From Acidobacteriota bacterium (lineage in GTDB: Bacteria > Acidobacteriota > Blastocatellia > Pyrinomonadales > Pyrinomonadaceae): 64,000 bases of DNA. Shown piece by piece: positions 5,379 to 34,639 of the stretch. Each line of letters starts with the position of its first letter. The first letter of the stretch is position 1. The position numbers and the translations under genes were made by a program. The stretch spans positions 62,001 to 126,000 of the forward strand of contig JAOAPY010000048.1 in assembly GCA_025463135.1 (NCBI GenBank), written 5' to 3'. The notes under the pieces were generated by a model. It saw only the letters and a list, made by a program, of their open reading frames with translations. It had not been told where the DNA came from and made no database searches.

Positions 5379-8300
5379 TCACTTCCAATTACCAATCAAT
5401 ATGAACGGCGCCCAGTAATAAGGATGCGCAAATGGCTTTGCCGGATTTCTAATGTATGGCTTAAAGGGGTCCCGGGACTTTTCCCCAACGATATGAGCGC
5501 GTTTCGTGCCGGCAGGTTCGTCTTTGATGGTGCCGTTAAGCAGCGCCCATTGGGCCCTCTGAAAAGCTTCAGCTTTCGATAATCCGCTCTGGTGCAGGCG
5601 GTAGAATTCCGGCATGAGGAGTTGGGTGCCAACGTCATCTACGGACCACAAGCTGGCAATGACCGCCATCGCCCCCAACTGCTGCGTCAAATAAGCAAAC
5701 CCTTCGACATCTTTCCCGTCCCCATCTCCGACCGCAGTATCACACGCAGATAACGTCACCAGGTCCATCTTCCCAAACAGGTTTGTCAGATCCTGCATTT
5801 TCCGTACTTCCAGATGACCACCCTTTCCCAGAAGCAAAAACGATTTCTCTGGCTGGGCCGGCTGATAACTGAAATGGCTGGCAATGTGGAGAACGTTATA
5901 ACCCTCGCTGAGATTTGAAAGTAGAACTTGTTCCTGAAACTCGTCGTCCCATTTAATTGTGCCAGGGAGTATGCCATTAGTTCGTTTCTGTTCATCATGC
6001 ACGATAGCCGAGAGTTCCTGAGGGACTTTGGGGAGTGCGGGAAAGGTTTCATATTGGCCGGAGACTCCCAGAGCCAATGCCCTCCATTCGCGGTTCGTTG
6101 AATGAACCAGGCCGGCCTGGCTTGCTGTCGTGAAGACCACATTCCGATATCTTTCGACCAAATATTTCTCGCCGTCGCGCAGTGCAGCCATGGGCACATA
6201 GCGCAGCACGCCATCCAGCGACCACATCAGCGTTTTGGTCTTCTCATTTTGCAGGTATGCCTGCAAATCCGCGGCGAGTGTGCTCCCATCTTGCTGCTGT
6301 TTCTCAAAGATCATGCGGTAGAGTTTCCGTCCCAAAGGTTGCGGATCGTAGAAATCGGATTTCATGACCTCGCGAAAGTCGGCCACCGTATCATTCAAAT
6401 CAGTGACATCCATCTCATAAGCTTTTTTTAACCCACGATCACCCGCGGGCGCTTCAAGGATGACCCATCCCTTAACAACCTTACCTTTCTCGGTCGATAT
6501 CACTGTGTAAAGCCCCACTGTACCGGTGCCAAATTTTTTACCTAGTTCCTTCAAATAGCGGATAAACGCCTGCGCTTCTTTTACCTCCGCTGTCTTTATT
6601 TTTGTATCTGGCGCTTCCTTCTCAATCGCCTCGAGCGCTCGACGAAAATCCGCGGCCGCCCGCGGCAGGAGAGTGTTTTCAATTAGATCGAGCCGCTGCC
6701 GGTCAGTCTCATTCAGCTTATTGTTGTCCTTAAGAGTACGCAGTTCATTAGCCTCTCGCCCAAGTACGCCGAGTTGAGTAAGCGTATTGACTGCCGCTGC
6801 TTCTGCAGTTGAGTAACCCACAATTGAGCGTGGTCCGTCACGCCGAGTCATCGGGGCGAACTCTTCCTGCTTAAGTAAGGCCAGAACCTGCTCGGCCTCC
6901 GGAAGACGTCCGGAATTGATTAGCAATGTCGCGAGGTTGCGGTAGCTGTCCTCTTTTGAATGCAGAAAGCTGTTTTGTGATTCTCGGCCGAGTCCGCCGG
7001 CGTTGGCGCGCAGTTGTTGAAAGATATTGACTGCCTGTTTGCCGCAGAAGATGGCCAGAACCTTATCTCCCTGGGCCTGATAGGCCAGCATCAGATTATG
7101 AAGTGTTGTCCCACTACCCGGAAGATCCAACGTTTCTCGTTCGATAACCAGAGCTTGTTCAAAAAATCCAATCGCCTGCCGGTAGTCTTTTTGAAGCAGG
7201 TATGCACTTCCAATATTGCTCAAGGTGTCCGCCTCTCCCAAACGGTCCCTGATGCGTCGACGAATCGCGAGCGCGCTGGTGAAGTGTTCCAGTGCGTCTT
7301 TGCTTCGTTTCAGCGAAAGACATACCGAGCCAAGATTGTTCAGGACTACGCCCTCTCCCCTCGGATCTTTTAATTCGCGCATTACGTCGAGTGCCTGCGT
7401 GAGGGTCTTCAGCGCCTCTTCGTGATGTCCATTGGCCTCGTATAGACCGGCCAAATTATTGAGCGTGAGGCCAACGCCGACGCGATTCTTAGCGCGCTGC
7501 ATGTCAACCAGGTTTTGCTGATAATAAGGCAGAGCCTTTTCGTACTGGGCGAGGGTTTTGTAGACCAAAGCGAGATTGTTGGAAATGACTTCGTTCAGTG
7601 ACGCGTCCCATTCGCGATTTGCAAGTGCTCTTTCGTATTCCTTTATCGCAAGTTCGTAGTTTCCACTCGAATAATAGGCGAGGCCCAGGTTGTTAAAAAT
7701 TACGTTGATGTTAAGCATAAGCCGAGGTGCCTTCACGTCAGGCTCTAGCGCATAAGCGAATACGGCATCGTTGGTATCAATGAGTTCGCGTGGATGCACA
7801 TATCTTTGGATTGAATCGTAGCCGGAGCCGACTATTAGATCAGGCGCCTCGTCGGGCCGGTAGCTATAACTGAATAGTGTCGGCTCTGCTTCCTTGATCG
7901 CGTCTTGATAACTCACAATTGCTTCGCGCAATCTCCCACTCGAGCGATACAACTCCCCAAGATTGTTAAGCGCGAAAGGCAGTAGCGATCGATTACCGAG
8001 CTTTGCCCTCGCGACCGCCAATTCCAACCGCGAGGTCGCATCAACTAACCGATTGAGTTGCAGGTATGCTTTGCCAAGGTCTATTAACGAAACGATTTGT
8101 ATCTGATCGTAAAACTTTGTCTCGATACTGAGGAGCTGTTCATAGGACTGCGCCGCCTCGTCATATTTGGCGGATGCCAAATAAGTCCTTGCTCGCTTAA
8201 ACCGGATTGCGATTTCACCCTCGCTGTCATTCGCTAATCGCTTTGCGTTTGCAGCCTCGCTCCAATAAGTTTGGGCCTTTCCTGTCTGATCGGAAGAATC

Positions 8301-9980
8301 GTAAGAATCTCCAAGTCTGTCGAGCGTGCCGCCTTCACGCATCTGGTCACCTACGGCCCGCCAAATCACCAGGGCCTTTTCAAGGCTTTCAATGCCTTTC
8401 CCTTCCTGCCCGGCGTCGAGGTAAGCCGTTCCGAGCCTCTCCAGCACATCAGCTTTCTCTACTGGCCTATTTCCTGCTTCTATTATTTGCAACAGACTCA
8501 GGTAAGCGTCGATGGCCGCCCTGCTTTCGTATCTGCCGCACTGATCAGCCGTCGCACGGAAAGTCGCTTCCAGTTTTCCAAGCGAGGCCAGCCTGGTAGC
8601 CTCGTCAGGATTCTTTTGAGCGGCAGCAAATGCTTTTTGATATGCCGCGAGTGGCAGGCCGCAATCGGAGCTGGTGAGACTGTAGACCCACCCCAAATCC
8701 AAATACAGGCTCGCCTCAAGCGCGGCGTCTTTTTCGATCACATTGCTCTTCAAAGCCTGATTCAGAAATTTGATGGCTTGATCGGTGGCGAACAAATCGT
8801 CATCAACCTGTTTGATTAAGTTTCGACGGCTCCAGAGCGTTTTCAGAAACTCGCCGGCTTGCTCGGTAGCGAACAAATTGTGGTCAACCTGTTTGACTAA
8901 GTTTCGACGGCTCAACGGCGTTTTCAGAAACTCGCCGGCTTGATCGGCAGCGAACAACTTGTCATCACCTTGTCTGATCAAAGTACGGGCGGTCTCCAGC
9001 ATTTGTTGATAATGATCTACGGCAAGCCGCTGCTGTCCCAAATTCCATTCGGCCAGGGCAATGTCTTGCTGGGTGCGGAAGGCCATCGACTTGTCGCCAA
9101 GTAAACCCGCAATCTTGAACGCGGACTCAAATGAAGTTAACGCCCGCTGATATTCCTTTTTTTCAAAGTAGTACCTTCCAAGACTGGCTAGCGAGCGATA
9201 CTCGCCCGCCGGATCGCGGGCCAGTCTATACAGCGCCATTGCTTCATTGTTCGCTCGCAAAAACTCTGAGGTCTTGTGATGTGCAGCATAGAGGTTGGCA
9301 ATCGCACTAAGCGCGAACGCTTGCCAATATGGATCGCCGACTTTCTGCCACAACTCGCGAGCGTGCTCATACATCTTTCGAGCTTTCTTGTAGTCGTCGC
9401 TGCGCTGCGACCGAAGAACCAGTTGAGCTTCTCCGAGCGCCTTTTCAGCTTCAATTCGTAGACTATCTGCGGACTCGGGTGCTGCATGAACAATCAAACT
9501 AATATCGTAATGCCCTGGGGGCCCCGCGTACTTGACGGGGGCCACTCCCAGAAACAAATCTCCTTCATTCCCAATAACCAGAGAGGTCGATTCCGGACCC
9601 CAGGCGCCGTTTGCCGCGTCAACGGTGAGCGGCTCGTTCCGGCCCGGTGCGATCAGCTTCAGACGGACATCAATTCCACGCTGGTTAACGTTTAGGTGCA
9701 GATATTGTCCGGCCCTCACGGCGATTCTATAGACATGATTTTCAGTGGAGCCAAGATCGCGTTGCAGGGTTTGCCCCGGCAAAAGCACAACGGCGTTCTG
9801 TACATCTCCGATCTGATAGCGGAGCCTGTCCTGCTCAGCTCTCTTTTCCAGGTAAGGATCAGGTGACGGGGCCGGCGTCTGTCCCAGGGCCCCGGGCGAA
9901 GCAAAAACAAGCAGGAACGCGCACCAAAACCACGGATCCTTTTTCGCCGACACACGATTTCTTGAATATGAGGCGTTCAT
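5379..9980 (-). CDS. secreted TPR-CHAT protease-like protein
   Basis: The protein has 1,533 residues if it starts at the ATG at 9980, which places a signal peptide (FLLVFASPGALG) near the N-terminus. The longer frame from 10076 lacks a signal and was not chosen. After a Pro-rich stretch comes a beta domain (about 45-165) containing a GIDVRLKLIAP segment. It resembles the N-terminal domain of the caspase gene 34835-38983. A long array of TPR helices follows (about 180-1060), then a helical linker and a C-terminal CHAT domain. The CHAT dyad is present: His about 1369 in HIASHFS and Cys about 1413 in LSACDTA. CHAT enzymes are separase/caspase relatives. A recent 81-bp in-frame tandem duplication lies inside the TPR region (8760-8990). 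A Type III-E CRISPR role is unlikely, since no Cas gene is near and the protein is exported. Confidence 0.88.
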   Translation of the reverse strand: MNASYSRNRVSAKKDPWFWCAFLLVFASPGALGQTPAPSPDPYLEKRAEQDRLRYQIGDVQNAVVLLPGQTLQRDLGSTENHVYRIAVRAGQYLHLNVNQRGIDVRLKLIAPGRNEPLTVDAANGAWGPESTSLVIGNEGDLFLGVAPVKYAGPPGHYDISLIVHAAPESADSLRIEAEKALGEAQLVLRSQRSDDYKKARKMYEHARELWQKVGDPYWQAFALSAIANLYAAHHKTSEFLRANNEAMALYRLARDPAGEYRSLASLGRYYFEKKEYQRALTSFESAFKIAGLLGDKSMAFRTQQDIALAEWNLGQQRLAVDHYQQMLETARTLIRQGDDKLFAADQAGEFLKTPLSRRNLVKQVDHNLFATEQAGEFLKTLWSRRNLIKQVDDDLFATDQAIKFLNQALKSNVIEKDAALEASLYLDLGWVYSLTSSDCGLPLAAYQKAFAAAQKNPDEATRLASLGKLEATFRATADQCGRYESRAAIDAYLSLLQIIEAGNRPVEKADVLERLGTAYLDAGQEGKGIESLEKALVIWRAVGDQMREGGTLDRLGDSYDSSDQTGKAQTYWSEAANAKRLANDSEGEIAIRFKRARTYLASAKYDEAAQSYEQLLSIETKFYDQIQIVSLIDLGKAYLQLNRLVDATSRLELAVARAKLGNRSLLPFALNNLGELYRSSGRLREAIVSYQDAIKEAEPTLFSYSYRPDEAPDLIVGSGYDSIQRYVHPRELIDTNDAVFAYALEPDVKAPRLMLNINVIFNNLGLAYYSSGNYELAIKEYERALANREWDASLNEVISNNLALVYKTLAQYEKALPYYQQNLVDMQRAKNRVGVGLTLNNLAGLYEANGHHEEALKTLTQALDVMRELKDPRGEGVVLNNLGSVCLSLKRSKDALEHFTSALAIRRRIRDRLGEADTLSNIGSAYLLQKDYRQAIGFFEQALVIERETLDLPGSGTTLHNLMLAYQAQGDKVLAIFCGKQAVNIFQQLRANAGGLGRESQNSFLHSKEDSYRNLATLLINSGRLPEAEQVLALLKQEEFAPMTRRDGPRSIVGYSTAEAAAVNTLTQLGVLGREANELRTLKDNNKLNETDRQRLDLIENTLLPRAAADFRRALEAIEKEAPDTKIKTAEVKEAQAFIRYLKELGKKFGTGTVGLYTVISTEKGKVVKGWVILEAPAGDRGLKKAYEMDVTDLNDTVADFREVMKSDFYDPQPLGRKLYRMIFEKQQQDGSTLAADLQAYLQNEKTKTLMWSLDGVLRYVPMAALRDGEKYLVERYRNVVFTTASQAGLVHSTNREWRALALGVSGQYETFPALPKVPQELSAIVHDEQKRTNGILPGTIKWDDEFQEQVLLSNLSEGYNVLHIASHFSYQPAQPEKSFLLLGKGGHLEVRKMQDLTNLFGKMDLVTLSACDTAVGDGDGKDVEGFAYLTQQLGAMAVIASLWSVDDVGTQLLMPEFYRLHQSGLSKAEAFQRAQWALLNGTIKDEPAGTKRAHIVGEKSRDPFKPYIRNPAKPFAHPYYWAPFILIGNWK
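8760..8990. repeat. 81-bp in-frame tandem repeat, about 2.8 copies
   Basis: Copies begin near 8760, 8841 and 8922, with the same 81-bp period seen at several anchor words. Each encodes a 27-residue unit (F.A.DQAGEFLKT..SRRNL pattern) inside the TPR-CHAT gene. The two downstream copies on the plus strand are nearly identical and the outer one has diverged. Because 81 is divisible by 3, the frame is kept. The period is shorter than a 34-residue TPR. Confidence 0.85.
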
Positions 9981-10112
9981 GAAAAGTTTGCAGCCGAATC
10001 TGCTTTGTACCTGCGTACCCGGTACGATCGTGAATATCAACCGGGAAATCAGGACGGTCCGAAGCGTCCATAGCACTCAGTTCGTATTAAGTGCGGGCCC
10101 ATCAATACTGCG

Positions 10113-12965
10113 TCATGGCTTTTTCGTTTCTGGTTTTTTCGCGATAAAGACAAAGTCGCTGCCTGGCTCATTCGCGCCCCATTCACCCTGGCGCGGCTCA
10201 GGCGTTACCCGTTCGACGTATGAAAGAACTCCCGTGATGGTGAGGATACCTTGTTTCCCGCCATAGCCTCTTAGAGCTTCCAATAATTTCCGGGCAAAGG
10301 GCGAGTGTTGCCCCGGCCGTCCGTCCGGCACATAGACCTTGTCACCAGAGGTGATGAAGCGACGGGTTTCAAATTTCATCTTTCTCTCGATAAACTCCGG
10401 GTTCGTGACGTCGTCATATTCGGGATCGCCACCACGTCTGGCGATTTTCTCGTCAAAGGTCCCACTGAAACAGGCATCCAACACGAGAAAGATGTGTTTA
10501 CAAGGTATGTAGTCAATGACCTTGCGCAAGATCGAGTGTGAAAGATAAGTGTCGCCCATCAGATCCTGAGCCTGAGAATCTTTGGCGATGATATAGCCTT
10601 CCTTGAACTCCTCGCTGAAAGAGCCATGTCCCGCAAAGAATATGAACAGTTGGTCATCATCAGCATAGGTTTTATCGCGCTTGTACTTTAGCAAGGCATT
10701 GACGATCTCCTGCTTCGTCGGATTCTTCAAAACTTCCGTTTCAAACCCATAGAAGTTCTTCAGTTCATCGGCTATGGCTTCCGCATCGGTTACCGGATTG
10801 TCCAGATGCGGCCAGCGTTCGTAGTCATTAATCGCTATCAGCAGAGCGTAATCCTTGCCCTTTCTGGCCGCTAACGCCGTTGACCGCTGCGGTCCAGGAA
10901 GGCCGACAATCGTGGCCCTTTTCGGAGATGGCTCTTGCTGTCTTTCAATCAGATATGTCGCCGAGTCAGCCCTGCTTCTGGTGTGATCAAAAAACGCATT
11001 AAGCCCGTTGCTCGGCGCGGCAGACTCGGTCTTCGCAAAATATGGAGTTGCGAATGAATCTCGAAGTGATGCATTCACAAAGCCGGCCTGCCTGCCGTTG
11101 ATCGACCCCTGGGTTGCGGGTTGTATTCCGGACGCATCGCCGAGTGGAAAATCGGCTCCCACTTCATAGCTCTTGATTTTGAAGTTGGTCATTTGGTTTG
11201 GCGCGGGACCAGGAGTTCGCAACAGGGGCAGATTGCTTATTTTGAGTCTCTCCGGCGCACCAAATTCTTTAGCGGCGATGTCTTCAGCGTAATGTAAGAG
11301 CTTTTTCGCGGTGATCTCTTTTTGTTCGTCCACCGCAACGGCCAGTCCCTGCAAGAGCGTGTAAGTCAAGGCCCCATTACCTTTCTTCAACAGCTCGTAA
11401 CTCCCCGCGGCGTTGGCCAGGATCACCATATCTCTTTGCAGCAGCCCCTCCAGAAGCCTATTCTCCTCGTCAAGGTGGGCTACGAAGGTATCGAAACCGC
11501 GCTCTGAGTGATCAGTATCCAGGACGATTAGTTGGTGACTGGATTGGATCTTAGTAAACCATGACTGCAGGAGAGCTGCCGAGATACCTCTCTCGGCGAG
11601 CTCATAGTCAGATGGTATGGTGTACAGCTTAGTATCGGTCGGTAACAACCAGAGTTGTGAAGGCGTAGCTCCTTTCGCGACCGTGGTTCGGTTTAGCCCT
11701 GCATAAAAGAAAACGAAAGTGTCCTGCGGTGCAGCTTCATGAATGATGTCATTGAAAGCAGCTGTGATGGAGGCTCTGGTGGCTTCGCGATCGAGAACCA
11801 GTTTCGTATTGATCTTCCCGAACCTGCTTCTTCCAACTTTCTCCAGCGCTGCTGCAAAGTCGCGCGCATCCTTCACTGCTAACTTCAGATCGTAATTAGA
11901 TCCGTAGTTTTTTGGATAATGATCGATGCCTACGGAAAGAATATGCAAAGTGGACTTTGGCGCGTCCGTTTCGGTGATCGCTACGGCCGCTGTCCCGCCG
12001 GTCGGGCCCACTTGGAAAGTGAGGCTCGCTGTTCCCCAGTCACTGGTACCAAACGGTTTTGCATCCGAAACACTCTGGCCCTCGAGAAGTCTGCCAAAGG
12101 GATTGGCGTTTCCTCGGATGGCGCCCTCGCGACCGACAAAGGCGTTAGCGTCGACCGGTTCCTTGGTAGCGATGAGTTTGAAAGTCTCGAGGCCGTATGG
12201 AGGTATGCTTCTGAAGAGATAATTCGGGGGCAACCGATGCCACACTCCATCCGCCATTATCCGGTTGTCGGTCGCACCAAGTGCCGAATTGGGGAAGAGC
12301 TGCTGGATAGATCCATCGGGCGTCAGGTCGAGAATGTTGACAAACGCGTCTGCCGTGCCGATGTTCCTCATTTCAAATGTAAACAGATCGCCTCCGGACA
12401 AATGCTTGTCTGTTTGAGTTGGTCCGTTCGGCTTCGCCGGCAGGTCGCGCACTTCTTCAACCGCACCGCTCGGGGCTGCTTTGCTGACCAGGACCTGGAC
12501 CAGACGAATTTCGATGCGAATCGTCGAATTTCGGCTGTTGTTTTCCAGGGACCTGATCATGCGCCATCTTGCTTCGCGTTCCAGCGCGGATGAAACCCTG
12601 GCAACCAGATCAGGATCAGTAATAGGTATCGTTGCGATGATGGCCCCGGCCTCGCGTTCAACTACGATTCTCGAGGCATCAAGTGCGTCGGGTCGAATGC
12701 GTGCCTGCCACTTTCCCTCCACTGCCGGCTCTTTGCTTACGTAGGGTAGCTGGCTGATCTTGCGCCTAACCTCCCTGGCTATTGACAAGTTCTCAATGAG
12801 GCTCGTATCGACGTAGATGACAACCGGTTTATCCCCTTCGTCAGCAGCACGAGGCGTGATTGTTGCGCCAGTACGGTAGTTGAGAGCGCCGACGCTTCCG
12901 CCCTGCAAGAGGGTGCCAAGCAGAAGCAGGCTGCACAACAATCGCGGTGCGGGAAAGTAACGCAT
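10113..12965 (-). CDS. secreted tandem caspase-like protein: dead C14 plus intact C14, with DUF4384
   Basis: The protein has 950 residues from the ATG at 12965, supported by GGAGAGGAG just upstream and by a signal peptide (residues 1-28); the longer frame to 13028 has neither. Residues about 45-320 match the C-terminal half of the C14-DUF4384 proteins 13602-15746 and 42820-45042 (REARWR and SLEN motifs, then the DUF4384 core). A first C14-like domain (about 338-545) begins LHILSVGIDHY. Its catalytic His is replaced by Leu424 (FYAGLN) and its Cys by Asp485 (LDTDHS). A second C14 domain (about 702-950) is intact, with His780 in FAGHGSF and Cys832 in LDACFSGT. The second domain is close to the stand-alone protein 19079-20032. 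This looks like a composite gene carrying a pseudo-protease and an active one. Confidence 0.88.
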   Translation of the reverse strand: MRYFPAPRLLCSLLLLGTLLQGGSVGALNYRTGATITPRAADEGDKPVVIYVDTSLIENLSIAREVRRKISQLPYVSKEPAVEGKWQARIRPDALDASRIVVEREAGAIIATIPITDPDLVARVSSALEREARWRMIRSLENNSRNSTIRIEIRLVQVLVSKAAPSGAVEEVRDLPAKPNGPTQTDKHLSGGDLFTFEMRNIGTADAFVNILDLTPDGSIQQLFPNSALGATDNRIMADGVWHRLPPNYLFRSIPPYGLETFKLIATKEPVDANAFVGREGAIRGNANPFGRLLEGQSVSDAKPFGTSDWGTASLTFQVGPTGGTAAVAITETDAPKSTLHILSVGIDHYPKNYGSNYDLKLAVKDARDFAAALEKVGRSRFGKINTKLVLDREATRASITAAFNDIIHEAAPQDTFVFFYAGLNRTTVAKGATPSQLWLLPTDTKLYTIPSDYELAERGISAALLQSWFTKIQSSHQLIVLDTDHSERGFDTFVAHLDEENRLLEGLLQRDMVILANAAGSYELLKKGNGALTYTLLQGLAVAVDEQKEITAKKLLHYAEDIAAKEFGAPERLKISNLPLLRTPGPAPNQMTNFKIKSYEVGADFPLGDASGIQPATQGSINGRQAGFVNASLRDSFATPYFAKTESAAPSNGLNAFFDHTRSRADSATYLIERQQEPSPKRATIVGLPGPQRSTALAARKGKDYALLIAINDYERWPHLDNPVTDAEAIADELKNFYGFETEVLKNPTKQEIVNALLKYKRDKTYADDDQLFIFFAGHGSFSEEFKEGYIIAKDSQAQDLMGDTYLSHSILRKVIDYIPCKHIFLVLDACFSGTFDEKIARRGGDPEYDDVTNPEFIERKMKFETRRFITSGDKVYVPDGRPGQHSPFARKLLEALRGYGGKQGILTITGVLSYVERVTPEPRQGEWGANEPGSDFVFIAKKPETKKP

Positions 12966-13104: not shown

Positions 13105-13373
13105 CTACTCTTTATGATTGGCAACGAAGAAAAAGTTGCTGCCCGGATCCCAACGTCCAAAATTATCGCCGATGGGCCCGGGTTTACTGCGCTCGACCGA
13201 CTTGTAAATATCCTCGAATGTCAGGTAGCCATCCTTACCACCGTAACTTTCAAGCACGTCGATAAAATACCTGGCAAAGGGAGAATGTTCATGCGTTGAC
13301 CGGCACTGCTGGATCTCGAGAAAGACAGCGCCAACAAGAAGATGCCGAAGAACAAGCACAAAAACTTTTTCAT
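13105..13373 (-). pseudogene. C14 (subfamily IV) deletion remnant
   Basis: A strong ribosome-binding site (AAAGGAG) precedes the ATG at 13373. The frame that opens there encodes a clear signal peptide (KKFLCLFFGIFLLAL, then SSSAG). Near 13290-13305 the coding frame switches, and the rest encodes only the last ~60 residues of a subfamily IV caspase domain (HSPFARYF, ending FFFVANHKE). The whole catalytic core of roughly 170 residues is missing. The ancestral protein would have resembled 19079-20032. The most likely history is one internal, frame-breaking deletion. The gene lies about 140 bp upstream of the tandem C14 gene, in the same direction. Confidence 0.75.
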
Positions 13374-13456
13374 TTGGAACTCCTTTAAAGAAACATTCGC
13401 CTTGCCGCGCGGTCCACACTTTACGATTGAGCCGCTCGCATGCACACCTTGGACGA

Positions 13457-13601: not shown

Positions 13602-15746
13602 TTAGTTAGGCTTTGCTCCGACGATGGTGTAGGTCACGGTGGCGGTAGCCCACGATGGCGGTACGGCCATGTTGATACCCGAGCGCTTGCCTTTCTGGGC
13701 TGACTTCAAAATTCGTCCCAGCGGTGAGCGAGCCGCGTTACCGCCTCTCTCGTCTAACGGTCCGCCCCGCGTTAAGAGCTCTGAATCAATTAAAGGTGTG
13801 TAGTCCGTCGGTTCACGAGTGGCGATGGCCCGGAAGCTCTCCTGACCCAGAGGCTCTTCGATGCGGAAAACATACGGCTCGGGAATAGGCAGGACCCCTC
13901 CCTGCTTGAGGAAATTAACATCATCAGGTTGTTTCACCCCCTTGATTTGTTGAGGCCACCCTGGCCCGACTTTACCGTCGCTGCGCAGGTTGAGTACCGT
14001 AACGAAAACATCTTCTTCACCGACGTTGCGAACTTCCAGCATCACGTGATCACCGACAGCCAATTCAATTTGACTGCCGCCCGTTCGATGCAGCGGTTTT
14101 ACACCCAGCACTTTCGTTACAAAGCCGTCGTGATCCAACTCAACCTCAACCGGAATGAGTCGCAACTCGACTCTGAGATTTGCATCGGTGTTCTCGAGCG
14201 ACTTGACTGTTTGCCAGCGGACTTCGGCTTCGAGTGCCTGCTTGACTCCATTGGCCAGGTCAGGCCCTTCGGGAACGGTCCCGAGTATCGAGCCGTCGTT
14301 GCGCTCAAGCACTGCGCCGCGAAAGTTTTCATCGACCAGCTTGTGCTCGATGTCAAAACCAATCGGCCGTCGAATCAATACATTCCAAGGCTTCTTGCCC
14401 GCGGGATCGTTCTCAATCAGCTCGAGGGATTTGATCTGAGCCAGAGCTTCAGGGCCGCCTTTCAAAGCTTCGACTCCCTGAGTCACAACTGTTAAAAGCT
14501 TATCGTCGTATTTGTGTTCTGTTTCAAAGGCGCGCGCCGTTCTCAGTTTTTCCCAATCCACAAGACCGTCGACCGACATCACGGCGGTCGTCAGGTCCAC
14601 TCGACTTAACACCGCGTCGCCGAGCTTGCCTCCGTCTTTGGGATCTTTCGTCCCCGAGGGATAGACACCGAACCGCGAGCCTTCGGTCATTCCCTGGAGC
14701 TTGCCTGCCTGCATCACCACCACCTTGGCGTTCCTGCGCATCTCGACCTTGACTCCCATGTAGCGTTGTGGCGGAAGTGCTGTTCCTTCCATCAGCACCT
14801 TGTCCAGTTCGCCCTCGAGCTGCGGATTCTGATCATGTTGGCGGCGCGTAACCGTGTCGTTGAGCCTCTCAAAGAGATCACGATATGTCGTCCTGGGACC
14901 AGAAGCGTCCAGCGCTTTGACCAGCGAATAAGTGTACAAACCCATGGGTTCATTGACGTCGTTATAGTCCTGTTTGGCTGTTTGTGCAGGGCTTGTCGCT
15001 GAGAGAAAAACGTAACCGGGGAATGGCTTCTCACCACGATTTAGCAGCCCGCTGGGGCTGGTATCCTCTCCCCGGATCTTTTCTTTGGCGACCGGCTTCC
15101 CCTTCCAGGGACCGCCACGCGAACGCAGCTTCAATTCTCCCCGCGTGGCTGTGCCTGAGAAACAACTATCCAAAGATATCGTGACGTTGCTCGGTTCGTG
15201 GAGCTTTAGTTCATCCAGCAGCTTGCCGATTTCGTCGTCGCGGATGTTCATTGATCCGTCTTTCTGTGAAACGTAATCCGAAGGAACCAGCGATTCATCG
15301 TAGCCGTCAACCTCGTCGTTGCCATCGTCGGGAATCTGCTGCCCATGACCGGAGTAGTGAAAGAAAACGATGTCACCCTTCTTTGTCGGCTTGATCAGAA
15401 ACTCGCGGAAAGCATCAATAATGTCTTTGTGTTTGGTCCGATCCGGCGAGTCGAGCACCAAAATGTCGTTCTTATCGAACTGAAACTTTTTGATAAGTAC
15501 CTCTTTAAGCAACGCAACGTCCTGGCTGGTGTTCAGATCCCACCAGTCGTAATTCGCCTCCTTACTGCGACGATCATACTTCTCAATGCCGACCAGCAAG
15601 GCGCGCTTGCGTGCGGAGGGAGAGGACTCAGCCGCAGGCTTCGAAGCACTGTCCTGACTATTCCGGGACTGCGCTTGATTTGCACTCAGGTTCAGACCAA
15701 CAACAGCGAAGCCGGCAATTACCACTATGCATTTCATCAGGTTCAT
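13602..15746 (-). CDS. secreted metacaspase-like C14 protease with DUF4384 (subfamily V)
   Basis: The protein has 714 residues. The ATG at 15746 is chosen because AGGAGG sits 9 bases upstream and a signal peptide follows (residues 1-26); the longer frame to 15905 starts with unrelated sequence. The C14 domain (about 46-320) begins RKRALLVGIEKYD. It has His134 in HYSGHGQQ and Cys195 in LDSCFSGT, with the Asp-rich EVDGYDESLVPSD loop typical of metacaspase-like enzymes between them. A middle domain follows (about 325-500), then a region ending in a DUF4384-type beta domain (about 545-700, NLRSDGKVGP). Its nearest relative is 42820-45042 on the other strand. DUF4384 is found in secreted proteins, but its ligand is unknown. 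Confidence 0.9.
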   Translation of the reverse strand: MNLMKCIVVIAGFAVVGLNLSANQAQSRNSQDSASKPAAESSPSARKRALLVGIEKYDRRSKEANYDWWDLNTSQDVALLKEVLIKKFQFDKNDILVLDSPDRTKHKDIIDAFREFLIKPTKKGDIVFFHYSGHGQQIPDDGNDEVDGYDESLVPSDYVSQKDGSMNIRDDEIGKLLDELKLHEPSNVTISLDSCFSGTATRGELKLRSRGGPWKGKPVAKEKIRGEDTSPSGLLNRGEKPFPGYVFLSATSPAQTAKQDYNDVNEPMGLYTYSLVKALDASGPRTTYRDLFERLNDTVTRRQHDQNPQLEGELDKVLMEGTALPPQRYMGVKVEMRRNAKVVVMQAGKLQGMTEGSRFGVYPSGTKDPKDGGKLGDAVLSRVDLTTAVMSVDGLVDWEKLRTARAFETEHKYDDKLLTVVTQGVEALKGGPEALAQIKSLELIENDPAGKKPWNVLIRRPIGFDIEHKLVDENFRGAVLERNDGSILGTVPEGPDLANGVKQALEAEVRWQTVKSLENTDANLRVELRLIPVEVELDHDGFVTKVLGVKPLHRTGGSQIELAVGDHVMLEVRNVGEEDVFVTVLNLRSDGKVGPGWPQQIKGVKQPDDVNFLKQGGVLPIPEPYVFRIEEPLGQESFRAIATREPTDYTPLIDSELLTRGGPLDERGGNAARSPLGRILKSAQKGKRSGINMAVPPSWATATVTYTIVGAKPN

Positions 15747-16070
15747 ATGATCAAGCCTCCTGGAAGGGCGGCCTAAAAAGGTGCGACGGTGATCGCGGTA
15801 GCCCGGGCTTCTGACATTTTTTTCCATCCGAAGCAGAAACACCCGAGCAAACCATATGTCCGGAATCTCTGTTCTATTTCCGGGCTGCGGCCGCGCTCCA
15901 GGCAAGCAACCGTCGCGGCTAAAGCAGGATCTTGAGATCTCTTTGAGGCGTCGTGGAGGTCACTCAACCGGGCAATGTTGCCCTGGGAACCCGGTGTGTG
16001 TGCAAAGCTAAGTTTCGTACGCCGCGAACTCTAGATGAACCGCTTTCACGTTGTCAACGGATATCGCCGC

Positions 16071-16705: not shown

Positions 16706-18928
16706 ATGAAACTCTACAGCTACCGGAAACTAATCGTCGTCTTGATTGCACTCAGCCTCTGTGCCGCTTCGCCGGCACAAACCGCCGGCAAAAAACGTCA
16801 ACAGTCGCCCCGGGTTCGTTATCCGAACGTGAAGCTGGGACGTGGTCTCAAGACGCGCGGCGGCGGCACCGAAAAGCTCTCGGCGGAGTTACGGATCCTG
16901 AACGATCAGTTCGCCACAACCAGAGGCAGTGCGGAACCGGATCCGTTGGCCTTCTCTAACCAGGAACTACAAAGTGTTTTTGCCATCGCACCCAATGATC
17001 CCAATCCCCTGGTCGCCGTCGCCATTAAGTCTGCGCCTGCACTGACCGCAAAGGAACTGCGCGGGAACGGCGCAAAAATATACCTGCACCAGGGCGATAC
17101 ATTCTATGCAGACATTCCAGTGTCGTCGCTGGATACTCTCGCCCGAACGAAGTCGATTCTTACGATCGGCGCCGTTAAAGCGGCGAGCGTGCCGCCATCT
17201 CCCAGCGAGAGCGCGCCACCTGCCAGGCGGCCGGTTACCTTAAGACAAAGAGGAATTATGTCCATCGTCACTCCTCCGCCTGCGAAAGAAAGCGCTAACG
17301 CGGCGAAGTCAGAGCTGACGGGCAAAGGAGTGATCGTTGGTGTAGTCGATACAGGCATCGATTGGCGGCACCCGGACTTTATTCGGCCCGATGGATCTTC
17401 GCGGATCCTTTACCTCTGGGACATGTACGACAATTCCTATCAGACCTCCGGCGGCAAAATCGGCAACCCGGGTCCAACACTCGAAGCGGGTGGTGACGTA
17501 CTACCGGGCACGGTTTATACCAATGCGCAGATCGATGCCGCTTTGGGAGGAACGGGCACCGTCAACTCCATGGACTACTTCGGACACGGAACGGCGGTGG
17601 CCGGTACAGCTGCCGGCAATGGACGCGCGACAGCAAATGGTCTGCCGGCCGGCACCTATACGGGTGTCGCTCCGGAAGCCGACCTGATTATTGTCAAGGC
17701 TTCGAACTGTGGAGGCTTTGCCTCGATAGCTCACCTGGGCACTTTCTGGATTGCACAGGCCGCGAAAAATCTGGGACGTCCGGTGGTTATCAATCATAGC
17801 TACGGAGGTCACTATTCCGCGCACGATGGTCAGGAAGAACAAGAGCAATTTTTTAATAGCATAGTGGGCCCGGGAAAACCGGGCGTGGCGGCGACCGTAT
17901 CGGCGGGCAATGAGGGTCGATATAGCCTGCATGCCGGCGGCCGTTTTGGGCCGCGCCGCGCAGGCCAGGCGGATGTCGGCGGGACCTCGATCAAATTGTC
18001 AGTGACGGCTAATCAGGCGATCCCGGAGGTCAAGTTGATCGGGACCTTCAGCACCGACGATGAATGGGGATTGGGTATTGTGGGCTCGGGAAAATTCATG
18101 GCGGATGAGAACGGCAAATCGCAGGTCGTTTACGTGTACAAAATTGATGGCGTCGTCAAGGTCGGGTTTGAGGAGGGGGCCACCGAACCGAAAGACCTCC
18201 CGGCCTTTGCACAGGCTGTGCTCAACGCATCTGTTATTTCAACCAGGGCGGGCGGGCACGACCAGGTCGTCGTTCCACTACCCCCGGATAATTATTGGGT
18301 TTGGGGCCTGGGAATAACTGAGAAGGTCCGGAACGGCAGGTTTGATCTCTACCTGCCTTATTTTAACTATTCCAACTTTACGTACGGTGCGGACAAGGAC
18401 TTGATGGTGGGATCGCCCGGCAATGCCTCAAACGTAATCACCGTCGCTGCCTATGATTTCCAGGACCAGTGGACCAATCAGAATGGCTCGCAAACCGCAT
18501 ACAACCTGGCCCTGTCCAGCATCTCCGACTATTCGAGTCCTGGTGGTCGCCGTCCCGATGGAGTCTTTAAGCCGGACATCGCCGCGCCTGCAACCTACAC
18601 TATCTCTTCCCTGTCGAAAGGCGCAGTGGCTACTCCTCTTATTTGCAGCGATGGCAATCTGGCGAGCGGTCTGGGCGAAAAGTCAGTTACGCGCGACAGC
18701 TATCACATAGCCTGGTCGGGGACCAGCGCGGCCTCGCCATTCGCGGCCGGCGTCATCGCCTTGATGCTGCAAAAAAATCCGACTCTCGACTCCAAGCAGA
18801 TTAGGGACATCCTGGTGCAGACCGCAATCAAAGGCGACAAGTACGTCGGCGCGGTTCCCAATCCCGCCTGGGGCTACGGCAAGATCAATCCCGCCGCGGC
18901 GATTGCCAAGACGCCGCTGCCGAAGTAA
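16706..18928 (+). CDS. secreted subtilisin-like serine protease (S8)
   Basis: The 740-residue protein has a signal peptide (about residues 1-25) and a long propeptide-like region (26-200). The S8 catalytic domain follows, with Asp215 in VVDTGIDWRHPD, His294 in FGHGTAVAG and Ser674 in SGTSAASP, so the triad is complete. The ~380 residues between His and Ser include a large insertion, as in S8 enzymes with an inserted beta domain. It ends soon after the Ser helix without a sorting tail. The ribosome-binding site is weak. It sits at the divergence point between the two arms of the caspase island and is the only non-clan-CD protease in it. Cleavage of its neighbours' zymogens is a reasonable inference, not shown. 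Confidence 0.92.
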   Translation: MKLYSYRKLIVVLIALSLCAASPAQTAGKKRQQSPRVRYPNVKLGRGLKTRGGGTEKLSAELRILNDQFATTRGSAEPDPLAFSNQELQSVFAIAPNDPNPLVAVAIKSAPALTAKELRGNGAKIYLHQGDTFYADIPVSSLDTLARTKSILTIGAVKAASVPPSPSESAPPARRPVTLRQRGIMSIVTPPPAKESANAAKSELTGKGVIVGVVDTGIDWRHPDFIRPDGSSRILYLWDMYDNSYQTSGGKIGNPGPTLEAGGDVLPGTVYTNAQIDAALGGTGTVNSMDYFGHGTAVAGTAAGNGRATANGLPAGTYTGVAPEADLIIVKASNCGGFASIAHLGTFWIAQAAKNLGRPVVINHSYGGHYSAHDGQEEQEQFFNSIVGPGKPGVAATVSAGNEGRYSLHAGGRFGPRRAGQADVGGTSIKLSVTANQAIPEVKLIGTFSTDDEWGLGIVGSGKFMADENGKSQVVYVYKIDGVVKVGFEEGATEPKDLPAFAQAVLNASVISTRAGGHDQVVVPLPPDNYWVWGLGITEKVRNGRFDLYLPYFNYSNFTYGADKDLMVGSPGNASNVITVAAYDFQDQWTNQNGSQTAYNLALSSISDYSSPGGRRPDGVFKPDIAAPATYTISSLSKGAVATPLICSDGNLASGLGEKSVTRDSYHIAWSGTSAASPFAAGVIALMLQKNPTLDSKQIRDILVQTAIKGDKYVGAVPNPAWGYGKINPAAAIAKTPLPK

Positions 18929-19078: not shown

Positions 19079-20032
19079 ATGGCCAGCCGGTTCAGATCAT
19101 GGGGAACGTCCACGCTGGTGCTTGTCATCCTGGTCGTCCTCTGTCTCGGCGTAACCACACCGGGTCGAGCCACTCACGGTCCGCGAAATCATCCCAGCAA
19201 ATATTATCAAGACCCGGATCCCAAAAGAGGGGCTCGGGTCGTGGGCGCAACCAACCCGCAGAAAGCCGGGGCGCCGTTCACTCGCAATGGCAAGGATTAC
19301 GCCCTCCTCGTCGCCACGGATGACTACGATAATTGGTCTCATCTGAATAATCCCCGCGATGATGCGCGCGCCGTCGCTTATGAATTGAAAAATTATTATG
19401 GCTTTGAAACTGAGGTCATTGAGAACCCAACGAAGGAAGCGATACTTACAACCCTGTTGCGGTACAAACGTGAAAGAAAATATTCAAATGAAGATCAGCT
19501 GTTCATTTTCTTTGCGGGTCATGGGACCTTCATTGATGAGTTCAAGGAAGGCTATATCATCGCCAAAGATTCAAAAGCGAACGATGAACTGGGAGAAACC
19601 TATATCGCCCACTCGCAGTTACGCCGTCTAATTGACTTCATACCATGCCGTCACATTTTTGTTGTCCTCGACGTCTGTTTTAGCGGCACGATTGACGAAT
19701 TCATCGCGCGGAGAAGAGGTCCCGATGAGTACGGGGATACTTCAAACTACGAGTTCATCGAGCGCAAACTGCAATTCCAAACACGACAGTTTCTTACTTC
19801 GGGGGGCAAAGAGTATGTCCCCGATGGCCGACCCGGCCAACACTCACCATTCGTAAGAAAGATCCTCGAAGCCCTGCGCAGCTACGGCGGCCAGTACGGC
19901 GTGTTGACGATAGGTGGAGTTACTTCTTACGTGGAACGAGTAACACCTGAGCCGCGGCGAGGTGAGTGGGGCACTAACGAGCCCGGCAGTGATTTTGTTT
20001 TCGTTGCCCGGTCGAAGGACAAGTCACCGTAA
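19079..20032 (+). CDS. secreted minimal caspase-like protease (C14, subfamily IV)
   Basis: The 317-residue protein has a signal peptide or anchor (residues 8-30), a short linker rich in Pro, Asp and Lys, and one C14 domain starting about residue 72 (KDYALLVATDDYD). The dyad is intact: His148 in FAGHGTF and Cys200 in LDVCFSGT. It has no WD40, TPR or DUF4384 part, so it is the simplest clan CD protein here. It is strongly similar to the second caspase domain of 10113-12965 and to the remnant 13105-13373 (shared GRPGQHSPF and VERVTPEPR words). It lies 150 bp after the subtilase gene and 89 bp before a WD40-C14 gene, all on the plus strand. Confidence 0.9.
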   Translation: MASRFRSWGTSTLVLVILVVLCLGVTTPGRATHGPRNHPSKYYQDPDPKRGARVVGATNPQKAGAPFTRNGKDYALLVATDDYDNWSHLNNPRDDARAVAYELKNYYGFETEVIENPTKEAILTTLLRYKRERKYSNEDQLFIFFAGHGTFIDEFKEGYIIAKDSKANDELGETYIAHSQLRRLIDFIPCRHIFVVLDVCFSGTIDEFIARRRGPDEYGDTSNYEFIERKLQFQTRQFLTSGGKEYVPDGRPGQHSPFVRKILEALRSYGGQYGVLTIGGVTSYVERVTPEPRRGEWGTNEPGSDFVFVARSKDKSP

Positions 20033-20121: not shown

Positions 20122-23100
20122 ATGCTTCAACGCCGCCTTGCATGGTTCCTGTTTGTGATCGTCTTCGGATGGCCGAGCGCTCAGGCTCAGCGACCGCAAT
20201 TGGTCATTCAGACGGGCCATACGGATGAAGTGCGAGCAGTGGCCTTTAGCCCGAACAGCAGATTGTTGGCGAGTGGCAGCGCCGATAACACTATCAAACT
20301 CTGGGATACGACCGCCGCCATCGAGGTGGGCACGCTCCGCGGTCATCAGGGAGAAGTGTATTCAGTGGCCTTCAGCCCGGATGGCAAGTCCCTCGCCTCC
20401 GCTGGAGCAGATCGCACGATCAGAGTATGGGACCTCATTTCAGGCAACGAGTTGCGCCGCTTAACGGGTCACTCCGGGGCAATTGTTTCGATCGCCTTTA
20501 GTCCGGACGGGAAGAGGCTTGCGAGTGCCGGCCTGGATCGAACCATCGGTATCTGGGACGTTGTCACCGGGCAGCAAATCATGACGTTGAGCGGACACAC
20601 CAGCGAGGTGATCTCCATTGCGTTTAGTCCCGATGGGCGAACCCTTGCGAGTGGCAGCAATGATCACCTGGTCAAATTATGGGATGTCTCAACGGGCAAA
20701 GAGGTAGGAACGCTTAGAGGACATTCCGCTGAGGTCTATTCAGTCGCCTTTAGTCCCGATGGAAAAACACTGGCAAGTGGGAGCGCTGACCGGACGATCG
20801 CCCTGTGGGATATGCGCAACTTTACGCGCCTGGCCATATTGCAGGGTCACACGGGGCTCGTAAAGTCGATTGCCTTCAGTCCTGACGGTAAGACGCTGAT
20901 GAGTGGCGCTACCGATTCAACCATCCGGTCGTGGGATCTAAAAAACTACAAAGTAGCTTTGAAGCTGGCCGGCGCCTCGGACATCGCGGCCATCGCCATT
21001 AGCCCTGATGGCACAACTGTGGCCAGCGCGAATAGAGATCAAACGATAGTCTTGCGTGAGCTTTCCGGTGGCAACGTACGGATCCTCCGAGGGCATTCAG
21101 TGGTAGTAAACTCGATTGCCTTCAGCGGCAACGGGAGGCTGTTGGCAATTGGTAATCGCGATGCAACAATCAAGATTCTGAACCTCGCCGCCGGCGCGGA
21201 GCTTCGTACGCTGGAAGAAAAGTTTGGCACTGTTCTCTCAATCGCGTTCAGTCCCGATGGCAACATCCTTGCCACTGGCAGTAGCGATCAGACCATTAAG
21301 CTGTGGGATGTCAACGCCGGTGAGCCAAGAATGACACTGGTTGGGCACTCAGCTCTTGTGAGGTCGATTGCCTTTAGTCCTGACGGCAAAGTACTGGCTA
21401 GCGGTAGCGCGGATCGTACGGTGAAACTTTGGGACGTCAGTTCCGGTCAGGAGTTGCGCAACATTAGTGGACACTTAGCCGCAGTCAACTCCGTAGCCTT
21501 CAGTCCTGACGGCAAAGTCCTGGCGTCCGGGAGTTCGGACCATACGATCAAGATTTGGAGCCTTGCGACGGGTGCAGAATTGATCACCCTTAAGGGACAT
21601 TCACACGCAGTTACGTCAGTAGCATTTAGTATCGATGGAAAACTCTTAGCGACAGGATCCGATGATGCGACAATAAAGCTCTGGGATTTTGGAAGTGGTC
21701 AACTTTTGTCCTCACTCGCAGGGCACGCCGATAGTGTCTCTGCCCTGGCGTTCAGTCCCGATGGTCGACTACTGGCAAGTGGCAGTCACGATCACACCGT
21801 CAAACTTTGGGATGTACCTACACGCCAGGAATCAGCGACGCTCACGAGATACGGTGCCATCAATTCAGTGGCGTTTAGCCGGGACGGTCATATTCTGGCC
21901 AGCGGCGGTGCCGACGCGGTCACCAGGCTTTGGGACGTGGCGCGCCGCGAGGAAATCGCCACTGTTTTGCCGAGTGGCCCGGGAAACTGGCTGATCGCTA
22001 CCCCGGACGGTCTTTTCGATGGCTCGCCCGCCGCGTGGAGCCAGATTCATTGGAGCTTCGGACTAAACGTCCTCGACGTCGCTCCGGTTGAAACATTCTT
22101 TAATGAGTTCTTTTATCCCGGCCTGCTTGCGGATATTTTTGCCGGCAAGCAGCCCCGGGCTGTGAAGGAGATCTCACAGAAAGATCGCCGCGCCCCTCGC
22201 TTGCAATTGACCGCCGAGCCGCCCACCGATCCTAACTCGCGTTTCGTTCTAATAAATATACATGTCAGCGAAGCTCCGCCCGATACGACGCATAGCAAGG
22301 GAAGCGGCGCGCGGGATTTGCGCCTGTTTCGCAACGGCTCGCGCATAAAATTTTGGGCCGGTGACTTACTAAAAGGACAGGCAACAGTCTCGCTAAAGGC
22401 TTTGGTGCCGATAGGTCCGGGTGAAAATCGATTTTCTGCTTATGCTTTCAATCCTGACAACATTAAGAGCAGCGATGTTTCGTTGACAATTATGGCGCCG
22501 GAGAACATCAGGCGCGCAGGCACTCTATCTGTGCTGGCAATCGGCATCTCAAAATACGAAAACCCTCAATACAATCTATCTTATGCCGCCGGCGATGCCG
22601 AGGCTCTTGCGAGGGAACTGGAGCGCCAGCAGCAAAAGCTGCGACTCTACAGTTCCGTAAAGGTAGTACCTTTATTAAATGCCGAGGCCACCAAAGCAAA
22701 CATCCTGCTCGCACTGAACAGATTCGCCGGCGAAGAATCAGCGTTACCAGCCGGCGTTCCGTCATCGCTGAGGCAGATCAAACCCGTGTTGCTCGAGGAC
22801 GCTGTGATTGTCATTTTTGTGGGTCATGGCACCGCCCAGAAGGACCACTTTTACTTCCTTCCGCACGACCTCGGATTCAGTGGGCCACGCTTGAGATTAA
22901 GCCAGGACGGCTTGGAATCAATTCTGGCCCACAGCATTTCAGAAACGGAACTGGAGTCTGCATTTGAAAAAGTCAATGCGGGTCATCTCTTATTCGTCCT
23001 GGATGCACCCTCCGGAGGACAAGCGCTTGAATCTGATGAGACCCGAATAGGACCAATGAATTCGAAGGGTCTGGCCCAACTGGCATATGAAAAAGGGATG

Positions 23101-23442
23101 TACATTCTGGCCGCTTCACAGCGGACCCAGGGCACAACCGAGTCAGCGCAGCTGGGTCACGGTTTATTGACCTTTGCACTGTTGGAAGGACTGGCAACGG
23201 ACAAAGCAGATTTGGATCGAGACAGGCAAGTGACCGCCTTTGAGTGGTTGAATTATGCAGTGCAGCGTGTTCCCGAATTGCAACTGGAGCCCTTAAGAGA
23301 ATCGCGGCATCATGCCGCCGCGTCTCATTTTTCTGTCAATACATCACCAGAGATAGATTTGGAGAGAAGTCACATACAGCGGCCGCGAATCTTCTATCGA
23401 CGAGAGTTGGAACCTCAACCGCTGATCGTGGCTCGGTATTAG
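20122..23442 (+). CDS. secreted WD40 pseudo-caspase (C14, subfamily II, catalytic Cys lost)
   Basis: The 1,106-residue protein starts at an ATG preceded by AAGGA and has a signal peptide (residues 1-23). Fourteen regular WD40 blades can be counted (about 30-620), enough for two seven-bladed propellers. The linker motif WLIATPDGLFD and a beta spacer lead to a C14 domain from about residue 798. The His is kept (about 902, FVGHGTA), but the catalytic Cys position reads LDAPSGGQAL, so Cys has become Pro (about 963). The paralogue 30746-34639 has IDACQSGQAL at this place. Everything around it, including the GPMNSKGLAQLAY block and the RPRIFYRRELE tail, is well kept, so this is not a decaying gene. 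It is probably a pseudo-protease scaffold or decoy. Confidence 0.9.
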   Translation: MLQRRLAWFLFVIVFGWPSAQAQRPQLVIQTGHTDEVRAVAFSPNSRLLASGSADNTIKLWDTTAAIEVGTLRGHQGEVYSVAFSPDGKSLASAGADRTIRVWDLISGNELRRLTGHSGAIVSIAFSPDGKRLASAGLDRTIGIWDVVTGQQIMTLSGHTSEVISIAFSPDGRTLASGSNDHLVKLWDVSTGKEVGTLRGHSAEVYSVAFSPDGKTLASGSADRTIALWDMRNFTRLAILQGHTGLVKSIAFSPDGKTLMSGATDSTIRSWDLKNYKVALKLAGASDIAAIAISPDGTTVASANRDQTIVLRELSGGNVRILRGHSVVVNSIAFSGNGRLLAIGNRDATIKILNLAAGAELRTLEEKFGTVLSIAFSPDGNILATGSSDQTIKLWDVNAGEPRMTLVGHSALVRSIAFSPDGKVLASGSADRTVKLWDVSSGQELRNISGHLAAVNSVAFSPDGKVLASGSSDHTIKIWSLATGAELITLKGHSHAVTSVAFSIDGKLLATGSDDATIKLWDFGSGQLLSSLAGHADSVSALAFSPDGRLLASGSHDHTVKLWDVPTRQESATLTRYGAINSVAFSRDGHILASGGADAVTRLWDVARREEIATVLPSGPGNWLIATPDGLFDGSPAAWSQIHWSFGLNVLDVAPVETFFNEFFYPGLLADIFAGKQPRAVKEISQKDRRAPRLQLTAEPPTDPNSRFVLINIHVSEAPPDTTHSKGSGARDLRLFRNGSRIKFWAGDLLKGQATVSLKALVPIGPGENRFSAYAFNPDNIKSSDVSLTIMAPENIRRAGTLSVLAIGISKYENPQYNLSYAAGDAEALARELERQQQKLRLYSSVKVVPLLNAEATKANILLALNRFAGEESALPAGVPSSLRQIKPVLLEDAVIVIFVGHGTAQKDHFYFLPHDLGFSGPRLRLSQDGLESILAHSISETELESAFEKVNAGHLLFVLDAPSGGQALESDETRIGPMNSKGLAQLAYEKGMYILAASQRTQGTTESAQLGHGLLTFALLEGLATDKADLDRDRQVTAFEWLNYAVQRVPELQLEPLRESRHHAAASHFSVNTSPEIDLERSHIQRPRIFYRRELEPQPLIVARY

Positions 23443-30573: not shown

Positions 30574-30745
30574 TGAGATTGAGTTAGGGCGACTGGCCTT
30601 CGCAGCTGATACATGTTGGTCGCCTGAAAAAACTGGCGCGCCAGGCCGCACCTCTACCATCCCCGGCACGCTGAAATGCATCCTTTAATTGGCGCGTCAA
30701 TCATCAACCATGTACATGGGCCCGGGAGTTCTCAGCAACGATAGA

Positions 30746-33700: not shown

Positions 33701-34639
33701 TATGATCTTCAGTTTGCTTTGGCTGATGTCGATGAAATCAGCCGCCAGGTCAAAACCTGCCAGGACGGGCTTCGCAACTATGCTCGCACTGAAATCATTT
33801 CCCTCACCGATCAGGAAGCCACAAAAGCGAACATCATGCTGGCGCTGCGAGGTTTTGCCGATCGCTCGCCAATGAAATTGCCGCCCGGCATTTCATGGGC
33901 CCTGAAACAACAACTGGAGAAGATCAAAGACATCGAACCTGAAGACGGCCTGGTCATCTACTATGCAGGCCACGGCACAGCCATCGGTGAACACTTTTAT
34001 TTGCTGCCGCACGATTTCATCGCCAAAAACGAAGCACTACTAGAGGCCAGCAGTATCTCCGATCTTGAATTGGATGAAGCGCTGGCGCGAGTGGACGCAA
34101 GTAAGCTGTTAATGATTATTGACGCGTGCCAGAGTGGTCAGGCTCTGGGCGGAGAGAAAGAAGGGCGCGGGCCAATGAACTCAAAGGGTCTGGCGCAACT
34201 GGCTTACGACAAAGGCATGTACATCCTGACGGCGGCGCAGAGTTATCAAGCTGCCAGAGAAGTATCGCGCACGCAAACCGGGAAACAGATCCAGCACGGG
34301 CTTTTGACTTTCGCTTTACTGGAAGGACTGACAAAGGCAAAGAAGGACAACGATGGCAAAATTAGCGAGCGCGAATGGATGAACTACGCCGTCGAGCAAG
34401 TGCCGCTGATGCAAATTGAAGAAATGAAAAAGCGCAGCGTGGTGATCGAGCAGGGCGGCCGTCCAAAGTCACCCTCAGCAGCTTCACGGAAAGGCGCACC
34501 GGGCCAACGCGGCGCCCAGTTGGTATTTATTGACGGCGATAACGCCAGGGCAGATCCCGAAAAGCGCAACGTACAACGCCCTCGCGTCTTCTACCGCCGC
34601 GAACTCGAGGCGCAGCCACTGATTGTCGCCAGGCCCTGA
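30746..34639 (+). CDS. secreted WD40 caspase-like protease (C14, subfamily II)
   Basis: The protein has 1,297 residues from the ATG at 30746, chosen because a signal peptide (MMRQFLQFL, then CLVMIV) begins there; a TTG 57 bases upstream opens the longer frame. The WD40 region (about 25-780) is longer and less regular than in its paralogue 20122-23442. The linker motif is WLTIAPDGRFD. The C14 domain starts near 968 with His1076 in YAGHGTAIG and Cys1128 in IDACQSGQALG, so this member is catalytically intact. The tail RPRVFYRRELEAQPLIVAR matches the paralogue almost exactly. No good ribosome-binding site is seen. The gene is 173 bp after the subfamily III gene, so one operon with it is plausible. 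Confidence 0.9.
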   Translation: MMRQFLQFLTCVCLVMIVQVEVRSQKAELIVQEGHTEKGLTGKFALAGKLIVTAGQDHALKLWSTETGTLLKTFTGLNPAGVDTEYSVRISPDGKRAAAVDFSNRIRILNLETGSELQPLAATLEAERGPKASLAPNAGAIHDLIFSSDGQHVYALVSVLSKGQASYAIHGWDLDSGKSVGHALESGDVEPTFFSPDANLLLGYSICSGESKLTVINTWDTASGRTAFRRSYPGCSDVKINPDGKLLVLHGHEKITLLNARTGQALSTIDVIGKLGDVAISHDGKLLSGKVEIGQGKTSLTQLVIWEVASGGITRQLSLGTGYLNDISFVWSPDNSMIACKMQTDGMSSSGVVQVWNVPSGNRVREFQLSKDELGRFLGPPLDWSPDGKYLVTFGDDGATYLWDPETGKKVHTLAGQSRSTDLVAYSPDGNYFVSEKESRRQSEDLRAGLSIWDLKGGALLSRIKGQFKTFSRDSKFVVTETKVQDRGFTATSMYADVQAKEDETNLWTLNGGTAVATLPGRFLFLSADNQRMITRSRDKGVILWDTEKKVPINTLTTFHDDTSFAVVSEDGAYLASGWNNGQTINLIDVSSGRTLRSLTGFPTQEDDPTEYDTPGYSAVFSHDNKLLACRRGWLENGETLLIWDVTTGALLNKFKAGRGLSPSLTFSPDNRTLVSMADDVTFFDVQTGKERKNLLNVADSFYEVMKTVDMNTKSFYSPDGSFFVTVTIGDDLDVQVFDLRNNRGLPYLSDRSFRAAAFSPDNKTMALVGQDNSIQFWDLHAGRLLITALDLDQDGWLTIAPDGRFDGTAGAWQKIFWRFTANIMDILPVEVFFGDFYYPSLLSDILSGRSTSFTQNLSAKDRRQPQLKLTLADAQTDTTLNARTVTAKIYVTQAPAGAQDVRLFRNGSLVRVWRGDVLGGQSQVTLEATVQIVAGENRLTAYAFNHDNIKSADASIIINGADGLKHAGTLYVLGIGSNKYQNPAYDLQFALADVDEISRQVKTCQDGLRNYARTEIISLTDQEATKANIMLALRGFADRSPMKLPPGISWALKQQLEKIKDIEPEDGLVIYYAGHGTAIGEHFYLLPHDFIAKNEALLEASSISDLELDEALARVDASKLLMIIDACQSGQALGGEKEGRGPMNSKGLAQLAYDKGMYILTAAQSYQAAREVSRTQTGKQIQHGLLTFALLEGLTKAKKDNDGKISEREWMNYAVEQVPLMQIEEMKKRSVVIEQGGRPKSPSAASRKGAPGQRGAQLVFIDGDNARADPEKRNVQRPRVFYRRELEAQPLIVARP

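Follow-up and report, generated by a model that had tools for sequence, protein, structure and literature searches.

A bacterial C14 protein that joins a dead caspase-fold domain to an intact one: a candidate for pseudoprotease control in cis

Can a dead caspase control a live one in a bacterium? Bacteria are known to encode pseudo-orthocaspases, but most known cases of a dead caspase controlling a live one come from animals. One gene in the window, which is the whole 64,000-nt stretch of DNA analysed here, raises the question for a single chain: the original prediction was that it encodes an inactive and an active homologous caspase domain in one protein. That pairing was borne out and is conserved across three genera. 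The best reading of the first of the two domains (domain 1) is that of a pseudoprotease kept by selection, which would regulate the second (domain 2) or bind substrate for it. We put the chances at about even that the protein is exported as a protease under the control, in cis, of its own pseudoprotease domain.

The tandem gene and its product

The gene occupies positions 10113–12965, as the original prediction had it, and lies on the minus strand with the ATG at 12965 and the stop at 10113. Its product of 950 aa comprises a DUF4384-containing N-terminal region, a dead C14 domain, a linker and an intact C14 domain. The first 28 aa, MRYFPAPRLLCSLLLLGTLLQGGSVGAL (12882–12965, minus strand), were judged by eye to resemble a signal peptide, and this start suggests that the protein, which belongs to a soil-type bacterium, is exported. 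Past this segment, the only cysteines are C822 and C832. The region common to C14-DUF4384 proteins, as defined by alignment, is aa 50–318 (12012–12818, minus strand). It is 35 % identical to the neighbouring C14-DUF4384 protein encoded at 13602–15905, and Pfam places DUF4384 at aa 195–270.

Two stretches of the protein were matched by each of Pfam Peptidase_C14 (best 706–909, E 1e-26), the PADLOC 'caspase' profile (best 340–544, which is domain 1) and NCBIfam caspase_w_EACC1 (NF047832). However, the score for the last, 97.5 bits, is under the curated cut-off of 140 bits, and the protein does not classify as an EACC1-associated caspase.

Domain 1 retains the caspase fold and lacks the catalytic dyad

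In the alignment, domain 1 (aa 337–612; 11130–11957, minus strand) has Leu424 (FFYAGLNRTTV; codon 11694–11696, minus strand) at the position of the catalytic His and Asp485 (IVLDTDHSERG; codon 11511–11513, minus strand) at that of the catalytic Cys, and the residue numbers originally given for both proved exact. With L424, D485 and zero cysteines, domain 1 is without the His/Cys dyad that marks an active Peptidase_C14. It does match the profile and has the caspase (CHF) fold.

The original prediction had made its case depend on this fold and had proposed structure prediction as the check. The AlphaFold2 model of domain 1 alone is a confident caspase fold (pLDDT 83.8, pTM 0.86), and was helped by the active C14 relatives in its alignment of 14 C14 domains, drawn from the window and the homologue in genome G033 (see below). 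The sequences given to structure prediction were those of the window and locus L046 only. Metacaspase-4 was the best structural match to the model (Z 21.0, rmsd 2.7, 218 aligned), MALT1 (Z 20.5) and caspase-7 (Z 19.4) were also found, and Foldseek concurs. Domain 1 gave zero direct sequence matches to solved structures in phmmer searches, and was matched only when a profile was used.

Two aspartates of the acidic pocket, D366 and D483, are kept in domain 1. They are invariant across the 14 aligned C14 domains and correspond in the alignment to Asp95 and Asp211 of TbMC2, which, according to PMC6426788, accommodate basic substrate residues in Trypanosoma brucei MC2. Domain 1 is thus a bacterial C14 domain with a substituted dyad and retained acidic pocket Asp residues, the features of a pseudo-orthocaspase. 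The retained pocket residues are also what would be expected if domain 1 were a docking module, binding basic peptides in the pocket and delivering substrates while the catalysis of domain 2 is unchanged. Cyanobacterial pseudo-orthocaspases retain the acidic pocket residues too (PMC6426788), and for the inactive caspase domains on vWA proteins, a role as peptide-binding domains or as dominant-negative regulators has been proposed (PMC7159879). Nevertheless, we consider docking rather unlikely as the whole explanation. In the window copy, Asn replaces the Gly that follows the His position (AGLN), a change that may affect the groove, and docking alone would leave unexplained the recurrence, described below, of the same active lineage as partner.

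Domain 2 and the linker

Domain 2 (aa 701–946; 10128–10865, minus strand), identified as C14 by Pfam and by alignment, has an intact dyad in the standard context, namely His780 (IFFAGHGSFSE) and Cys832 (LVLDACFSGTF), again as first proposed. The dyad together with the profile match at 706–909 predicts an active Peptidase_C14.

The linker between the domains (aa 613–700; 10866–11129, minus strand) was modelled with low confidence and is probably disordered for the most part. In the model of the tandem protein (pTM 0.48), the linker and the contacts between the domains are not placed, and the C-terminal part of domain 2 has a pLDDT <50. An RSR at aa 663–665 (10971–10979, minus strand) aligns with an RSR in the linker of the G033 protein, and is a possible self-cleavage site. 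If domain 2, which likely cuts after Arg or Lys, cleaved the linker at this or another site, the protein would be a polyprotein whose halves act apart. The unplaced linker would be consistent with this, as would the alignment of RSR between the window and G033 in a linker that is otherwise variable, and the genes at 19079 and 20122 (see below) are separate, indicating that fusion is not obligatory. However, the RSR match is short and confined to two sequences, with no evident counterpart in the third tandem protein, that of genome G072, and we regard a polyprotein as improbable.

Occurrence and conservation of the fusion

The fusion is present in two further genera of the family, represented by G033 and G072. 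In G033 (JACCVY010000218.1, a Blastocatellia MAG), the tandem frame is 896 aa with a TPR N-terminus, and the dyad sites are Gln/Arg in the first domain and His/Cys in the second. The G072 frame is 645 aa, lacks an N-terminal module, and has Asn/Cys in the first domain and His/Cys in the second. As the Cys is kept there, inactivity of the G072 first domain depends on loss of the His alone. The tandem layout is rare: across 162 class genomes it was found in three proteins. When 396 genomes from the phylum were searched twice, no additional full-length tandem was recovered, and wider contig scans returned just the G033 contig again and one single-domain C14 protein. A class-wide search with PF00656, which misses dead domains, listed no ORF with two matches. 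Among plasmid relatives, 12 records matched, and the best 10 of the 12 align with domain 2 only, at approximately 27–33 % identity.

Between the window and G033, identities at codon positions 1, 2 and 3 are 0.55, 0.67 and 0.33 for domain 1 (45 % amino acid identity), and 0.80, 0.83 and 0.35 for domain 2 (70 % amino acid identity). As the first two positions are far above the third, domain 1 is constrained as a protein, though less so than domain 2. The third positions are saturated, and hence no dN/dS ratio can be obtained for this comparison. Domain 1 could in principle be what remains of a fused protease, decaying and now without function, and its faster divergence (45 % against 70 % identity for domain 2) would be consistent with that. 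So would a degraded C14 gene of the domain-2 type immediately upstream of the tandem gene (13105–13419, minus strand), recognized by eye as a signal-like start followed by the C-terminal end in another frame. However, the window copy folds confidently in the AlphaFold2 model, the frames are open in three genera, codon positions 1 and 2 are far more conserved than the third, and a second, independent dead domain is found at 20122. A relic is therefore a very improbable explanation.

Origin of the two domains

A tree of 67 C14 domains places domain 1 within a clade of WD40-linked C14 domains (support 98/94), where it is grouped with the first domain of the G033 protein (99/99). Domain 2 belongs to a different clade (100/97), which includes the stand-alone protein encoded at 19079–20032 as well as the second domain of each of the G033 and G072 proteins. 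As the two domains are in separate supported clades, a recent internal duplication was ruled out and the tandem gene represents a fusion of two C14 lineages. A single clade for the three tandem first domains was not rejected (p 0.43). The three fusions probably share one ancestor, and in that case are not three independent events.

A second dead and active pair in two adjacent genes

The stand-alone C14 protein encoded at 19079–20032 (plus strand) is of the domain-2 type, with an intact dyad and 67 % identity to domain 2. A WD40-C14 gene (20122–23442, plus strand) begins 89 bp downstream on the same strand, and in its C14 domain the catalytic Cys is replaced by Pro (LDAPSGG; codon 23008–23010). 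A close paralogue of this gene, at 30689–34639, retains His/Cys. In the tree, the 20122 domain is sister to that of 30689 (100/91), away from the tandem first domains, and one origin for it and the three tandem first domains was rejected (p-AU 0.00025). Hence, there were at least two losses of the dyad, and in both cases the adjoining active protease is of one and the same lineage.

A set of 126 C14 domains was assembled from this genome and its relatives, and after removal of two that were truncated, 124 complete, non-redundant domains were compared. The dyad is absent in only four (4/124), the three tandem first domains and that of 20122–23442, and all four share a chain with, or adjoin, a domain-2-type C14 with an intact dyad. 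The chance that two random losses among 122 lineages would hit exactly these two is about 1.4e-4, which is a rough figure, as the pattern was seen before counting (the link of the tandem proteins to 20122 was noticed post hoc), the loci had been collected on the basis of similarity, and two of the dead domains were included in the search profile. That the pairing is found in two other genera, and again in this genome as two neighbouring genes, points to a function of the dead half, most probably control of the live half.

How domain 1 may control domain 2

We tentatively propose, with somewhat less than even confidence, that the dead domain either activates the live one or keeps it inactive, and that this arrangement arose two or more times with partners from a single active lineage, once as a fusion and once as neighbouring genes. 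Domain 1 would have lost the ability to cut and retained a peptide-binding surface, both acidic pocket Asp residues being present. It could act on domain 2 via the long flexible linker, through direct contact, through retention of a substrate or a segment of the linker, or through both, and would set when domain 2 becomes active, through either activation or inhibition. The N-terminal module (DUF4384 here, TPR in G033 and none in G072) may bring the signal or the target. The system offers one exported-looking chain and natural variants, namely three fusions with different dead sites and one two-gene version, and these variants make control of a caspase by a bacterial pseudo-caspase directly testable.

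Comparison with known systems

In c-FLIP(L)/caspase-8, a pseudo-caspase is likewise paired with an active homologue (see also PMC7586951), but these are two chains, joined via death effector domains and a p10-type dimer, whereas the tandem protein is one chain. As the relative position of the domains is not defined in the tandem model, the original comparison with c-FLIP/caspase-8 dimerisation is reasonably kept as an analogy only. In orthocaspases, the p10 part that mediates dimerisation of animal caspases is missing (reviewed in PMC5756287), and dimerisation of the caspase type thus cannot be assumed for the tandem protein.

A closer parallel in layout is mammalian caspase-16 (CASP16), which has a dead caspase-like prodomain before the active domain (PMC12198278, PMC12292325) and which evolved separately. 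In both, one chain carries an N-terminal caspase-fold domain without the Cys/His dyad and an intact C-terminal domain, and the same order is seen in G033 and G072. However, the layout of caspase-16 stems from a duplication of the gene's own exons, whereas the separate clades of domains 1 and 2 do not fit duplication within the gene and the bacterial tandem joined two C14 lineages. Unlike caspase-16, the bacterial protein also appears to be exported, and has DUF4384 or TPR as an additional module. The authors of the caspase-16 review knew of no other caspase with such a prodomain (PMC12198278 / PMC12292325), and the tandem protein is a second, independently evolved case of this layout. If domain 1 does act as a switch, it would be a prokaryotic counterpart, independently reached, of caspase-16 and c-FLIP/caspase-8.

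Bacterial pseudo-orthocaspases resemble domain 1 in that the dyad is substituted and the fold and acidic pocket are kept. According to PMC6426788 and PMC8283722, they are common (858/9,994 bacterial orthocaspases), 90 % are from Alphaproteobacteria and Cyanobacteria, and the cyanobacterial dyad is commonly Tyr/Ser or Tyr/Asn. They are described there as separate proteins, unlike domain 1, and the passages searched mention no pseudo-orthocaspase fused to an active C14. Nor was a bacterial dead/active C14 fusion found described in the literature searched, which included few subscription journals. The vWA-MoxR-VMAP conflict systems also include inactive caspase domains, on the vWA component, and where that component has a caspase-like domain, the VMAP component nearly always has one too (PMC7159879). 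However, that pairing is between proteins of an NTPase system, whereas the tandem protein pairs the domains within one chain. Neither a vWA nor a MoxR domain is among the Pfam matches listed for the window proteins scanned, which were those of the longer ORFs.

Gene neighbourhood

A TPR-CHAT gene (5379–10076, minus strand) lies 36 bp downstream of the tandem gene on the same strand, and a TPR-CHAT gene adjoins the tandem gene in G072 as well. Neither a promoter nor a terminator was found when the stretch between the genes of each pair (tandem/TPR-CHAT and 19079/20122) was scanned. Eight of the 12 Peptidase_C14 matches in the genome are within window positions 1276–53314, many of them in WD40-C14 proteins. 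This region also encodes two CHAT proteins, a subtilase (16706–18928), a CHASE2 protein and a Ser/Thr kinase, and many of its proteins begin with signal-like sequences. The gene set around the G072 tandem gene (locus L112, G072:C430, 1–11301) resembles that of the window, though from another genus. It includes TPR-CHAT, C14-DUF4384 and a WD40-C14-type end, together with an apparent ECF sigma factor and a possible anti-sigma-like membrane protein, both recognized by eye. In a third genome (locus L044, G027:C37, 2227–7519), a C14-DUF4384 frame overlaps a TPR-CHAT frame on the same strand.
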